A stretch of 32,224 nt of DNA from Candidatus Methanoperedens nitratireducens (GTDB lineage Archaea; Halobacteriota; Methanosarcinia; Methanosarcinales; Methanoperedenaceae), in the NCBI RefSeq assembly GCF_000685155.1, contig NZ_JMIY01000007.1, positions 40,421 to 72,644 on the forward strand. The letters run 5' to 3'. Made by a program: the position numbers and the translations under genes. Positions 2,778-32,162 of this stretch are shown here, piece after piece. Every line of letters begins with the position of its first letter. The stretch's first letter is position 1. The notes under the pieces are model-generated. The model was given only the letters and a program-made list of their open reading frames with translations, was not told where the DNA came from and made no database searches.

Positions 2778-4661
2778 CTAGAACATCCTGGGATACCAAT
2801 GTACTATGAATGCACGACCACTATATGGTAAAGGACAAGTCGGGCTGCAATTTGTCCTATCCCCAGCAGGTTGGGCTGCCGCAGGCCATCCTCGATAGCC
2901 AGAGCGCGCCCAATTCTGTGAAGGTATAAAATTGGCAACGGGAGTTGCCAATCCTGTGAAACCTGTGCCTTTATACTTATTAATCAAGTCTAACATCTCG
3001 CTTTCTGTAAAATCAGAAGCTTTGGCGGAGCCAATGGAGGCAAAGTGTGCGTGACACAATTTGCACATAACACCGAAGATGACATAGTTGGCTGATCCAG
3101 CGTAGTGGCAGTCAGGACCGACTTTAACAGAGGAACCACAGCGCGGAGTTGCACGTGCCGAGGCACAGCTCGGGCGGTATGTAAGAATCCATGCGTTATT
3201 GTGCAAATCAACGATATCCCAGGCGAATCCACCAGTTAATAAAGACGTCAAATTGTTGCAGACATCGGTCTTTTCGCTCGGTGACCATCCAGCAAACGTT
3301 GTCTTAGTTTTGCTCACTGCATTACTAATTTGCGTTGTGACATCTGGGCCGCAAACAAATAGAGGCGACGGTGTTGGCGGTAACGGTATGGGTGTCGGCG
3401 GTGGAGGAGGTGGTGTCGTTCCACCGCTTCCCATGGCCTCAAGTCGAGGCCATGTCTTGTCCCCTATTTTCCCGTCAGAATTGAGACCGCCATCACAGAG
3501 TTGGAACATGACCGTTGCTCGTTTGGTATCATCACCGAACCAGCAATCAACCTTCAACCTTGTCGGCAAGCTCTGACGCTCTGCCTCAATGCGCTGGGGA
3601 TTCCCAGCACAGCCAATCTGATCTCCTGTGCCGGTTTTCGTGTTGTCGTATCTGCGCAGAAATTCGTTCAACAATCTTTGCGCGTGCCCCACGGCCGGCC
3701 GTTTTGACCGTAAGTTTTCATCCACCCCTCGTTGGCGTGCCTCTAGGTAATGGTAGATGAGAGGCTGTCCTGGTTCCTGATTGGCCGGCCCTCGAGTTCC
3801 GCATTCATCTGCCTGACGCTGAAGACCAAGCGCTTGAAGCCGACCAGTCACCTGTGGCAAACCCACCGTGCACGTTTCTATCATGCGCATCGTCTGCAAA
3901 TCGGCTTCGCGTTCCAGTTGTGTCTCACCAGGCTGCTCCATCAGCCCCAGGCGTTGTATTCCACTAGCTGCTCCACTTTGTTGCATCACGTGAGTCAGCT
4001 CGTGGGCAATCAGGCGTTTCCCGGCAGTTTTGTCAGGTGCATACTGCCCTGCTCCGAAAACGATGTCGCGGCCGACCGTATACGCCAGCGCGTTCACCGC
4101 ACTCGCCGACTCAGCCGCCTTCGCATCCACATGCACCCTCGTCTGGCTGAAGTCGTGCCCGAAGCGCGGTTCGAAGAAATCACGCACGGATTCAGGCAGT
4201 GGTTGACCGCCGCCTCTGATAGAATTGATATCTGCATCTAAACCCGGCGTTATTTCAGGAATCAATCCCGGAACTTCTTTAGGCTGCAGTACTTCTTCCT
4301 TTTCCGACAGGCGGTGATCTGTACATTTCGGACACGCGCGCTGGACAGGATTATCCGAGCCCTTTCCAGAAACTTCCGTGTTTTCAGAGACCTTTGTCTC
4401 TGCCATACTCATCACCTGTTCCGCCACCCTGTCAGCCTCCTGCTCGTAGATGTCGCCGGGCGCGCCTATCCTGAGCCTGGCCTGCAGCGCCCCGGATTTC
4501 ATGAGCCTCTGTACAGCCCTGTTACCGATGGTTCTCTGGAGGAACAGGATGCGCTCAACGGGTGAGCCTGTTGATGGAGAGTGCTCAGCCTTTTGCGTGC
4601 GGGAAGCTGAAATCTCTTTCTTTGCTTCAGTAGTTTTGGCAGCAAGTGCTCTCTCAGTCAA
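2778..4661 (-). CDS. eCIS cargo: leader + DUF4157 + peptidoglycan-binding domain + Cys-rich domain
   Basis: A 627-residue effector candidate. The leader (1-90) is nearly identical in places to that of the 6232-7077 protein. CPKC lies at 110-113; DUF4157 spans about 147-230 with HELTH at 220-224. A second EREAD-type helix (249-260) follows. Residues 323-409 fit a PG_binding_1 domain: AQRLLNEFL, then LKVDCWFGDDTKRATVMFQ and GLNSDGKIGDKTWPRL. A proline-rich linker (412-434) leads to a C-terminal domain of about 190 residues with nine cysteines (437, 468, 499, 508, 518, 533, 536, 605, 609) and the segment DLHNNAWILTYRP. I do not recognise that domain's activity. The start is TTG with GGAGATTCCAA upstream, fixed by alignment of MTERALAAKTTEAKK with MAERALTAKTTDIKR. 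Peptidoglycan binding implies a bacterial target, since archaea lack murein (inference). Confidence 0.85.
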   Translation of the reverse strand: MTERALAAKTTEAKKEISASRTQKAEHSPSTGSPVERILFLQRTIGNRAVQRLMKSGALQARLRIGAPGDIYEQEADRVAEQVMSMAETKVSENTEVSGKGSDNPVQRACPKCTDHRLSEKEEVLQPKEVPGLIPEITPGLDADINSIRGGGQPLPESVRDFFEPRFGHDFSQTRVHVDAKAAESASAVNALAYTVGRDIVFGAGQYAPDKTAGKRLIAHELTHVMQQSGAASGIQRLGLMEQPGETQLEREADLQTMRMIETCTVGLPQVTGRLQALGLQRQADECGTRGPANQEPGQPLIYHYLEARQRGVDENLRSKRPAVGHAQRLLNEFLRRYDNTKTGTGDQIGCAGNPQRIEAERQSLPTRLKVDCWFGDDTKRATVMFQLCDGGLNSDGKIGDKTWPRLEAMGSGGTTPPPPPPTPIPLPPTPSPLFVCGPDVTTQISNAVSKTKTTFAGWSPSEKTDVCNNLTSLLTGGFAWDIVDLHNNAWILTYRPSCASARATPRCGSSVKVGPDCHYAGSANYVIFGVMCKLCHAHFASIGSAKASDFTESEMLDLINKYKGTGFTGLATPVANFIPSQNWARSGYRGWPAAAQPAGDRTNCSPTCPLPYSGRAFIVHWYPRMF

Positions 4662-4731
4662 TTGGAATCTCCTCTATAGTATTAATGTAATGTCCACTAA
4701 TCTCATGGGATAATCAGAAATCTCACCTTAA

Positions 4732-4896
4732 AGTCGGCTATGAACTACAGTTCATAGATAACAATGAAAAAGACGATTAACAACGAACTCAAAACGAACT
4801 TAAACGAACTCATCAACCCGAGTTCGTATCGAGTTCGTACCAGTTCGTTGTTTATATTATCTGAACCACATCGAGTCTAAGATGCGATATAATTGA
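4732..4896 (+). repeat. dispersed ~165-bp structured repeat, copy 1
   Basis: This block recurs at 31998-32162 in the same orientation with only scattered differences. It starts with a short hairpin: CTATGAACT (4738-4746), a 2-base loop, then AGTTCATAG (4749-4757). Next comes a larger palindromic unit at 4779-4852: three ACGAACT boxes starting at 4783, 4794 and 4804, and three AGTTCGT boxes starting at 4821, 4832 and 4842. Spacings are 11 and 10 bases on both sides, and the outermost arms extend to 11 bp (AACAACGAACT / AGTTCGTTGTT). It sits between the stop of one cargo gene (4946) and the start of the next (4661), filling most of that 284-base gap. It could be a MITE-like element, a structured RNA or a phased operator. 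No open reading frame is evident. Confidence 0.85.
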
Positions 4897-4945
4897 ACTT
4901 TTTCATACCAGAGCGCAAAGTTTTCCCTATTAAAATAAATATTTA

Positions 4946-6196
4946 TTATTTTTGTGGAGAATTCAACTCTTCCCTGGCTATATCTCCAGGCGGCCTTACA
5001 TATTGGATTAATCCCTGGCTATGAAGCCAATCTATTAATTGAAGCAGGGACAATGTTCCGATATCGGACGCACGAACATGTAGAACATTCGGGTTATGGC
5101 TTCTTAATGCTTGATTTATATCTTCTGTAATTTCGTCTATTAATCCTGGAATTGGAAAACTATCCAATCTACGTGTTATATTGGCTAACAATCCATTAAG
5201 ATTCTGATTCCAGGATATAGAGGATAAAATACCTCCAATTACGTTTAAATGCCTGATGGACCTTGAGGGCAAGCCCTGGAATCTCCAATTTATTGGATCA
5301 ACGGTAGCCCTCGCAGATAGAATTCCTGACACTATTACCTGCCCCAATGCATCAGTAATTGAGCCTGCAATATTACCAGCGGTTTGTACAACTCTGATAG
5401 CTCCTGCAATGGCCTGGGTAATATCGTATACTCTTGAGGTTATAAAAGCGTCAGGACCGGCATACAATATGCCCCCTGTATCCCGTAGAGTATGGGATAC
5501 AGGGCTGTCATCTGAATCATACTGGTTAGGAGTACCTCTGCAACCGGCATAAGGGTGATTCTGGTCAACCAGGGTTCCCGAATGGTCATAAAAACATTCA
5601 TTTTGCGGATCATCTGGTGTTGGAATACGATTTTCAAGAATTCCTCTGAACCCGCAGTGGAATACATTTGGATTGCCATGATATCTTTGCCAGCCCGAAG
5701 GAACAGGATCAGGCCAGCTTGGAGGACATGCCTGTATTCTTTGAATAGTAGGATTAGTTGTACTCTGCTGTATCACATGCGTCAGCTCATGTGCCAGCAA
5801 ACGCTTACCTGCGCTTGTCTGGGGCTGGTACTGACCCGCTCCAAAAACTATATCTTTGCCAACAGTATAAGCCAAAGCATTGATAGAGCCTGCTGATTCC
5901 TCTGCCTTTTGACCCAAATGCACTCTCACCCCGCTGAAGTCGTAACCGAAACGCGGCTCAAAATAAGCTCGCACAGGTTCAGGCAAAGGCTGGCCGATCC
6001 TGAGATTTGCCTGCAATTTTCCTGATTGGATCAATCTCTGAACAACTTGATTGCCAGCAGTTTGTTGGATAAATAAGATGCGGTCAGCAGGAGAATTTAC
6101 ATTTGGCTGAGATATTCTGGTCCTTCGTACCTGAGAACACGATTTTTCTCGTTTTGCTTGAGGTCTTTCGGCATGTAGACTTATCAAATTTCCCAG
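4946..6196 (-). CDS. eCIS cargo: short leader + DUF4157 + unidentified C-terminal domain
   Basis: An effector candidate of 416 residues from the start chosen here, a CTG at 6194-6196. The reason is homology: AAAGGTGATAAAATCTGGGAAA matches AAAGGTGATATTATATGGGAAA at the 7119-8600 gene, and the resulting protein start (xGNLISLHAERPQAKREK) aligns with MGKIAVLHARKTEAKKN. A TTG at 6185-6187 is the first canonical alternative. The leader runs directly into DUF4157, skipping the EQEAD helix, CxxC and acidic linker. In the TTG-start numbering DUF4157 spans ~66-145 with HELTH at 133-137. Residues 165-250 contain YHGNPNVFHCGFRGILENR, NECFYD and HPYAGCRGTPNQYD. Residues 253-350 are rich in Ala/Gly/Ile/Leu (AIAGAIRVVQTAGNIAG), suggesting amphipathic helices, possibly membrane-active. 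No family is recognised for this part. Confidence 0.8.
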   Translation of the reverse strand: MGNLISLHAERPQAKREKSCSQVRRTRISQPNVNSPADRILFIQQTAGNQVVQRLIQSGKLQANLRIGQPLPEPVRAYFEPRFGYDFSGVRVHLGQKAEESAGSINALAYTVGKDIVFGAGQYQPQTSAGKRLLAHELTHVIQQSTTNPTIQRIQACPPSWPDPVPSGWQRYHGNPNVFHCGFRGILENRIPTPDDPQNECFYDHSGTLVDQNHPYAGCRGTPNQYDSDDSPVSHTLRDTGGILYAGPDAFITSRVYDITQAIAGAIRVVQTAGNIAGSITDALGQVIVSGILSARATVDPINWRFQGLPSRSIRHLNVIGGILSSISWNQNLNGLLANITRRLDSFPIPGLIDEITEDINQALRSHNPNVLHVRASDIGTLSLLQLIDWLHSQGLIQYVRPPGDIAREELNSPQK

Positions 6197-29126: not shown

Positions 29127-29523
29127 AAATAAATAAAATCAACTAATCAGAAGGAGTTTCATTGCACAATTGCTCGCTCCTTGTTAGAACTATTATTATT
29201 ATGGCTCACATGTACACGGGCATATATATTTGTTTCGTTGTTTAAATTTGAGTGTAGAGTCCTGAAATCCAGCGTTTCTAATTTCCAGAGGAAATGGGAG
29301 TAAGCAATGTAGATGCTCATGACAGAATGGGAAAAAGGGCTAAAGATTCAATATTGATTTACAGTATGAGTTGTTATAACAAGATAGGGCAGGGTATATT
29401 TTTATGATTATAATCATTACAATCAGTCACTATTATCAACACCATAATTTATTTTCCAATAGAAATAAAGGGGTTGAATAATAAGAAATAAAATTAATCG
29501 TTTACAGACCTATCACGTTTCTA
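29127..29523. other. 397-bp intergenic region upstream of the eCIS array
   Basis: AT-rich gap between the first eCIS gene and the 3' end of the cis-prenyltransferase-like gene, both on the minus strand. It holds a candidate TATA box (29222-29231) and a 37-codon plus-strand ORF (29294-29407, MGVSNVDAHDRMGKRAKDS), preceded by AGAGGAA, which I consider weak. No RNA gene or long repeat is apparent. Confidence 0.5.
29222..29237 (-). promoter_or_regulatory. candidate archaeal BRE/TATA promoter for the eCIS array
   Basis: The minus strand reads CGAAACAAATATATATG: a purine-rich BRE-like hexamer followed by an AT-only TATA element, about 100 bases before the first eCIS start codon. It would give a 5' leader of about 70 bases. 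It is assigned by pattern and position only. Confidence 0.35.
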
Positions 29524-31773: not shown

Positions 31774-31909
31774 TTCCTCACCCGGATATCAGGATGAGGT
31801 GCATGAAGATAAATCTTTCCTACTATTTGAGCCCATCCAATAATTCCAACTTCTCAAATTACATACTGTCTTGAAGAGTTAAGATCTGTAGTCCTATATA
31901 AAAACAATC

Positions 31910-31997: not shown

Positions 31998-32162
31998 AGT
32001 CGGCTATGAACCTGGTTCATAGATAACAATGAAAAAGACGATTAACAACGAACTCAAAACGAACTTAAACGAACTCATCAGCCCGAGTTCGTATCGAGTT
32101 CGTGCCAGTTCGTTGTTTATATTAGCTCAACCACATCGAAATCTAAGATACGATATAGTTCA
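31998..32162 (+). repeat. dispersed ~165-bp structured repeat, copy 2
   Basis: Same orientation and layout as 4732-4896. The first hairpin is CTATGAACC-T-GGTTCATAG, so the last stem pair differs from copy 1 (T-A there, C-G here) yet still pairs, a compensatory change. The large palindrome keeps all six ACGAACT/AGTTCGT boxes unchanged; substitutions fall in loops and spacers (ATCAGCCC for ATCAACCC, GTGCC for GTACC). It lies 224 bases beyond the miniprotein start. No ORF is evident. Confidence 0.85.

Follow-up and report, generated by a model that had tools for sequence, protein, structure and literature searches.

A palindromic repeat that occurs twice within a 32,224-nt stretch of the Candidatus Methanoperedens nitratireducens genome (C7:40421-72644, the whole stretch analyzed, hereafter the window) raises the question of whether its symmetry is maintained as base pairing, in an RNA or a cruciform, or whether its short boxes are what is conserved. 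Methanoperedens archaea, noted for their Borgs and large plasmids, carry out anaerobic methane oxidation. We compared the copies of this repeat within the source genome, with a close relative (G002, ~94% identical over matched flanks) and across the genus and order.

Nested organization of the repeat

Re-reading of the window confirmed the two same-orientation copies and all twelve boxes at the places where the original prediction had put them, with three ACGAACT boxes followed by three AGTTCGT boxes in each copy and steps of 11, 10 and 11, 10 bp. The element extends beyond the positions first proposed for copy 1 (4732-4896): the full unit is 4734-4911, and copy 2 is without the right end. In copy 1, an outer ATGAAAAAG/CTTTTTCAT stem encloses the box palindrome. 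The following features were assigned, with their basis in parentheses:

4724..4733, + strand: left flank CACCTTAAAG, which varies the target consensus CCRCARAG that lies just 5′ of scaffold copies (consensus of 57 left flanks)
4734..4911, + strand: complete outer scaffold of copy 1, 178 bp, TCGGC...ATACCAG, with the core palindrome in its slot (copy alignment, empty scaffolds, clean empty site of L021)
4738..4757, + strand: hairpin 1, CTATGAAC-TACA-GTTCATAG, loop hypervariable (fold and hairpin-1 copy comparison)
4764..4772, + strand: slot-framing palindrome, left arm ATGAAAAAG (fold; arms joined directly in empty scaffolds)
4779..4852, + strand: inner core palindrome (cassette), inverted ends AACAACGAACT/AGTTCGTTGTT, six boxes (core alignment, fold, box positions)
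4783..4810, + strand: boxes 1-3, ACGAACT at 4783, 4794 and 4804 (box positions)
4821..4848, + strand: boxes 4-6, AGTTCGT at 4821, 4832 and 4842 (box positions)
4898..4906, + strand: slot-framing palindrome, right arm CTTTTTCAT, 5 nt from the right end (fold, positions)
4914..4920, + strand: CGCAAAG box just beyond the right end, left over from an outer CGCAAAG repeat (positions)
32000..32160, + strand: scaffold and core of copy 2, right end lost, without CTTTTTCATACCAG (copy alignment)
32044..32117, + strand: copy 2 core palindrome, with its boxes at 32048, 32059, 32069, 32086, 32097 and 32107 (box positions)

Most of the window (306-28782, minus strand) is occupied by a cluster for an extracellular contractile injection system (eCIS) that includes sheath, baseplate J, GPD hub and AAA ATPase. 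Copy 1 lies between two of the three ORFs with an eCIS_core domain in this cluster (701-2611, 2778-4661 and 4946-6187).

The alignment of all copies, the comparison with G002 and the classification of scaffolds gave the layout TCGGC - hairpin 1 - ATAACAATGAAAAAG / slot / CTTTTTCATACCAG, with the consensus CCRCARAG directly 5′ of the scaffold in 57 copies. The scaffold measures 178 bp, or ~70 bp when empty, which is too short for a transposase gene, and it has no inverted termini; hairpin 1 lies 4 nt from its left end and the slot-framing palindrome 5 nt from its right end. The core, by contrast, has inverted ends, and it has no coding capacity. Scaffolds with the slot arms joined directly were found both in G002 (L191, L192, L193 and L271) and in the source genome (L208 and L121). 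In most source-genome copies the slot is filled by the ACGAACT palindrome, but L196 and L199 of the source genome and L193 of G002 have an unrelated palindrome with CACGGAT-type boxes there. In several copies (L192 of G002, L003 of the source genome) the scaffold itself separates box 1 from box 2 of a CGCAAAG triad palindrome. A scaffold left half precedes 33 of the ~50 source-genome cores, and the core is also carried by a second unit that looks mobile. Box number varies among cores (2+3, 3+2 and 4+3).

Several individual copies depart from this layout. In L122 (C7:144458) the core loop is inverted, with CTCGGGCTGATGAG in place of CTCATCAGCCCGAG, as expected from recombination between the two arms. 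In L111 (C1:306.7 kb), L129 (C7:236.7 kb) and L130 (C2:544.8 kb), the box arrays are broken by what appear to be ends of insertion sequences, namely GTGCGACAAGAAAG and a variant of CTGTGACAAGAAG. One more dispersed module, GAACCCATCCRNTAATT, occurs in L025, L027, L114, L119, L117 and at 31829-31846 of the window, some of its copies seemingly within the hairpin-1 loop. Another slot content, common to the source genome and G002, consists of direct repeats of CATAAGTTGAAAG spaced ~20 bp apart (L004, minus strand, 1127; L248, 2961).

Copy number and genomic distribution

Counting and aligning all genomic copies, as the original prediction had proposed, yielded ~50 dispersed cores on both strands of the 3.2-Mb source genome by BLAST and pattern searches, with 0 matches to a reversed control pattern. 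About 40 of 46 copies are outside ORFs of 100 aa or more and are, by this simple criterion, mostly intergenic. Next to co-directional genes, the copies show no bias in orientation (17 versus 11). Relatives of the repeat are present in all 31 genomes of the genus, although copy number differs widely among species, and the exact three-box array was detected in 36 of 186 genomes of the order, comprising 29 in the genus and 7 others. Solitary left arms, with three or four ACGAACT boxes and no inverted partner, were seen in other genomes of the order (L163 in G053, L169 in G005 and L162 in G041). A search of IMG/VR for viral carriage returned one isolated, chance-like array and no scaffold.

Conservation of boxes versus conservation of pairing

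A stem difference between the two copies (ACT/AGT versus ACC/GGT) had been read as a compensatory change. The letters are correct (ATGAACT-AC-AGTTCAT versus ATGAACC-T-GGTTCAT), but the position is part of the hypervariable loop of hairpin 1. Among the 59 copies recovered by a strict pattern search, this loop takes 28 different forms of 1-7 nt, and its first and last bases pair in 8 of the 45 loops of at least 3 nt, where 8.2 would be expected by independence; in the stem, 2 cells were compensated while 38 were changed on one side only. Among the box pairs of 69 three-plus-three cores, 150 were intact, 52 had one arm mutated and 5 had both arms mutated, and none of these 57 changed pairs was compensated, the arms matching in none of the five double changes. 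Core detection tolerated one mismatch per box, so single compensated changes would have been detectable, whereas greater divergence is invisible to it. In the same cores the first spacers were never complementary and the second spacers only 4 times. The covariation test suggested along with the original claim thus lent no support to conserved pairing, either in the 59 hairpins or in the 69 cores. Constraint acts on the box sequence and not on pairing, with the caveat that the box search favors conserved boxes and their conservation is in part a product of this ascertainment.

Taking fixed boxes with variable spacers as a sign of sequence-specific recognition fared better. The boxes are conserved while the spacers diverge, and it is plausible that a putative protein recognizes them sequence-specifically. 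Helical phasing, which had been taken to suggest protein binding, applies to the ACGAACT family, in which box steps across the genus are 10 bp (220), 11 bp (120) or 9 bp (10). It is not a general rule, however: among the box families of these genomes periods run from 8 to 11 (8-10 in the sister families), and phasing therefore cannot be their common principle, which is a 7-bp box plus a short spacer.

Turnover between close relatives

The core is absent from G002 at 9 of 12 resolvable sites (L003, L017, L021, L027, L029, L112, L116, L120 and L124) and common to both genomes at the remaining 3 (L026, L125 and L111, with both L111 copies broken). At any individual site, absence may represent either insertion in the source genome or loss from G002. 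A clean empty site was found at L021, where G002 reads AACCACAGAG directly followed by TAGGCAAGG and the source genome reads AACCACAGAG, TCGGC...ATACCA, TAGGCAAGG, with a non-repeat right flank. The search for target-site duplications gave a mixed outcome: there is none at L021, the sole precise filled/empty pair without duplication that was found, but direct repeats do border other copies. At L124, G002 has a left half-scaffold without core, and the core of the source genome is bordered on both sides by ATGAAAAA, an 8-bp direct repeat; the larger composite at L003 is bordered by 7-bp CTTCACC repeats. Several sites show more complex replacements, and elsewhere G002 carries other repeats; turnover is therefore genuine, although simple insertion does not account for every event. 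No empty site for the copy at 31998 was found in L031, where synteny ends at window position 29246. A transposon-like unit, which in the form of clear termini would according to the original prediction make the repeat a decayed MITE with no constraint, is largely in evidence, as the repeat is dispersed, insertion-polymorphic and has defined ends; it is not simply decayed, however, because its boxes stay fixed while the spacers diverge.

A matching transposase, also suggested as a check, was sought at the candidate loci of the genus, where 29 of 31 genomes have Y1 transposases and 25 of 31 have TnpB-type domains. Cores or scaffold ends were near only 1 of 60 sampled Y1/TnpB loci, the scaffold ends there belonging to an ordinary copy, and a RAYT/Y1 or TnpB partner was rejected for want of linkage at the sampled loci. 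The genes at multi-core loci, considered as a possible autonomous element, were ordinary (type I restriction-modification, nitrogenase-like, MutL, chaperonin).

Candidate explanations

We consider it probable (about 0.68) that the repeat is a nested, gene-free, non-autonomous mobile element resembling the palindrome-associated transposable elements (PATEs) and carrying a small mobile palindrome, similar to the small mobile repeats (SMRs), whose boxes are recognized by a putative protein. The outer 178-bp scaffold would insert just 3′ of CCRCARAG without duplicating its target, working like PATEs, and its central palindrome would accept small palindromic cassettes in a slot, which is filled here by the palindrome with inverted ends and six 7-bp boxes. 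A DNA-binding or recombinase protein supplied in trans would bind the boxes. This reading takes in the copy number, the insertion polymorphism, the nesting, the alternative cassettes in one slot and the conservation of boxes rather than pairing observed here; we infer that the boxes are protein sites and that movement is enzymatic, and not due to recombination or gene conversion.

The palindromes might instead multiply and swap passively, by replication slippage, hairpin-tip repair, gene conversion or homologous recombination, with no dedicated enzyme. Variation in box number, the inverted loop of L122, the hypervariable loop tips and many messy junctions are all in keeping with such a mosaic, but we judge it decidedly unlikely, as such processes would hardly produce defined scaffold ends, the 8-bp target consensus of 57 copies or the clean empty site at L021. 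It is unlikely, too, that the phased boxes are sites of a nucleoid, segregation or regulatory protein of the Methanosarcinales and that copies persist through use by the host: species of the genus differ widely in copy number, 9 of the 12 sites are not common to G002, flanking gene orientations are unspecific and the core is a passenger in a second mobile-looking unit, even though the boxes remain invariant throughout the genus and in a few genomes from the order's other families, where the spacers have diverged, their steps are of 10-11 bp and some solitary half arrays exist. The original prediction favored function at the RNA or cruciform level, with pairing kept in a functional transcript, as in a structured non-coding RNA or an mRNA-stability hairpin. 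The strand does fold far better than dinucleotide shuffles (DNA z -6.8, RNA z -7.4; 0 of 200 shuffles as good), but none of the box pairs in the 69 cores is compensated and compensation is scarce in the 59 hairpins 1. With no match to an Rfam family (the search yielded only a tRNA), no orientation bias relative to genes, and insertion polymorphism as well, this explanation appears very improbable.

A wider class of box palindromes

A scan of 1.12 Mb of G002 gave 33 exact 7-mer triads with a period of 8-11, versus 4-10 in control period ranges; nearly all belonged to six box families, and many were arranged as palindromes. The CGCAGAT triad (period 10), found in Methanoperedens at L003 1313-1380 and L032 2646-4040, occurs 157 times in the Anabaena azotica genome (G198, L284) and a few times in Oscillatoria, Geobacter and others, with 0 control matches. 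Only tentatively, and with more doubt than belief, do we suggest that the ACGAACT palindrome may belong to a set of at least six heptad-triad palindrome families (ACGAACT, CACGGAT, CGCAGAT, CGCAAAG, CACAGAG and ACAGGAT), each with three 7-bp boxes, 1-4 bp spacers and then an inverted set, which a common, unrecognized mechanism would move in archaea and bacteria and which would nest as interchangeable cassettes in each other's hairpins. Six exemplar strings of the sister families occur in none of the papers searched.

The nested, transposase-free palindromes described here form a genus-wide family that is polymorphic between close relatives and therefore reshapes intergenic DNA. Their slot-and-cassette layout, together with box families common to cyanobacteria and other bacteria, makes the movement of gene-less tiny repeats more directly testable, and the repeat would gain interest if the cross-domain class proves to have a common mechanism.

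Comparison with known small mobile repeats

Transposase-free mobile palindromes are a known class, of which the repeat looks like a new variety with nesting; it does not look like an RNA gene. No description of such an element was present among the matches listed for Methanoperedens repeats and MITEs in the literature. The small dispersed repeats (SDRs) of Nostoc, which Elhai and colleagues are said to have described in 2008, are reportedly tiny nested mobile repeats of 21-27 nt that lie within heptameric repeats and have a structure supported by compensatory changes; the likeness lies in the tiny, nested, mobile character, whereas covariation was sought in the ACGAACT repeat and not found. 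MITEs have inverted termini in common with an autonomous element, along with matching target duplications; the core has inverted ends, but no autonomous element sharing them was found at multi-core, Y1 or TnpB loci. REP sequences and BIMEs are dispersed intergenic palindromes that form composite mosaics, and RAYTs are Y1 transposase genes flanked by the cognate palindrome (PMC2817692, PMC3733652). The repeat is also dispersed, intergenic, palindromic and mosaic, but its core is a much longer multi-box palindrome, and Y1 genes are not flanked by it (a core lay nearby at 1 of 30 Y1 loci).

PATEs of Haloquadratum walsbyi have no coding capacity and no inverted termini, carry near-terminal palindromes related to the ends of IS605-type transposons, occur in many strain-specific copies, make no target duplication and are preferentially attacked by SMR-A, a short, gene-free small mobile repeat with inverted ends and no target duplication, whose movement is unexplained (PMC3119063). 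The scaffold likewise codes for nothing, lacks inverted termini, has a palindrome close to either end, occurs in many strain-specific copies and is frequently invaded by smaller repeats. Its target is not duplicated at the one clean site (L021); 7-bp repeats border the larger composite at L003. It differs in its 8-bp target consensus and in that the invading repeat occupies a fixed slot at the center of the right-end palindrome; similarity of scaffold ends to IS200/IS605-type transposon ends was sought in the genus and not found, and we therefore do not claim membership among PATEs. The core resembles SMR-A in being short, gene-free, inverted at its ends and preferentially within a PATE-like element, but it has a six-box architecture, unrelated alternative cassettes use the same slot, and an 8-bp direct repeat borders it at L124. 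The closest described system is the combination of PATE and SMR-A in H. walsbyi, the scaffold working as a PATE does and the core as an SMR-A does.
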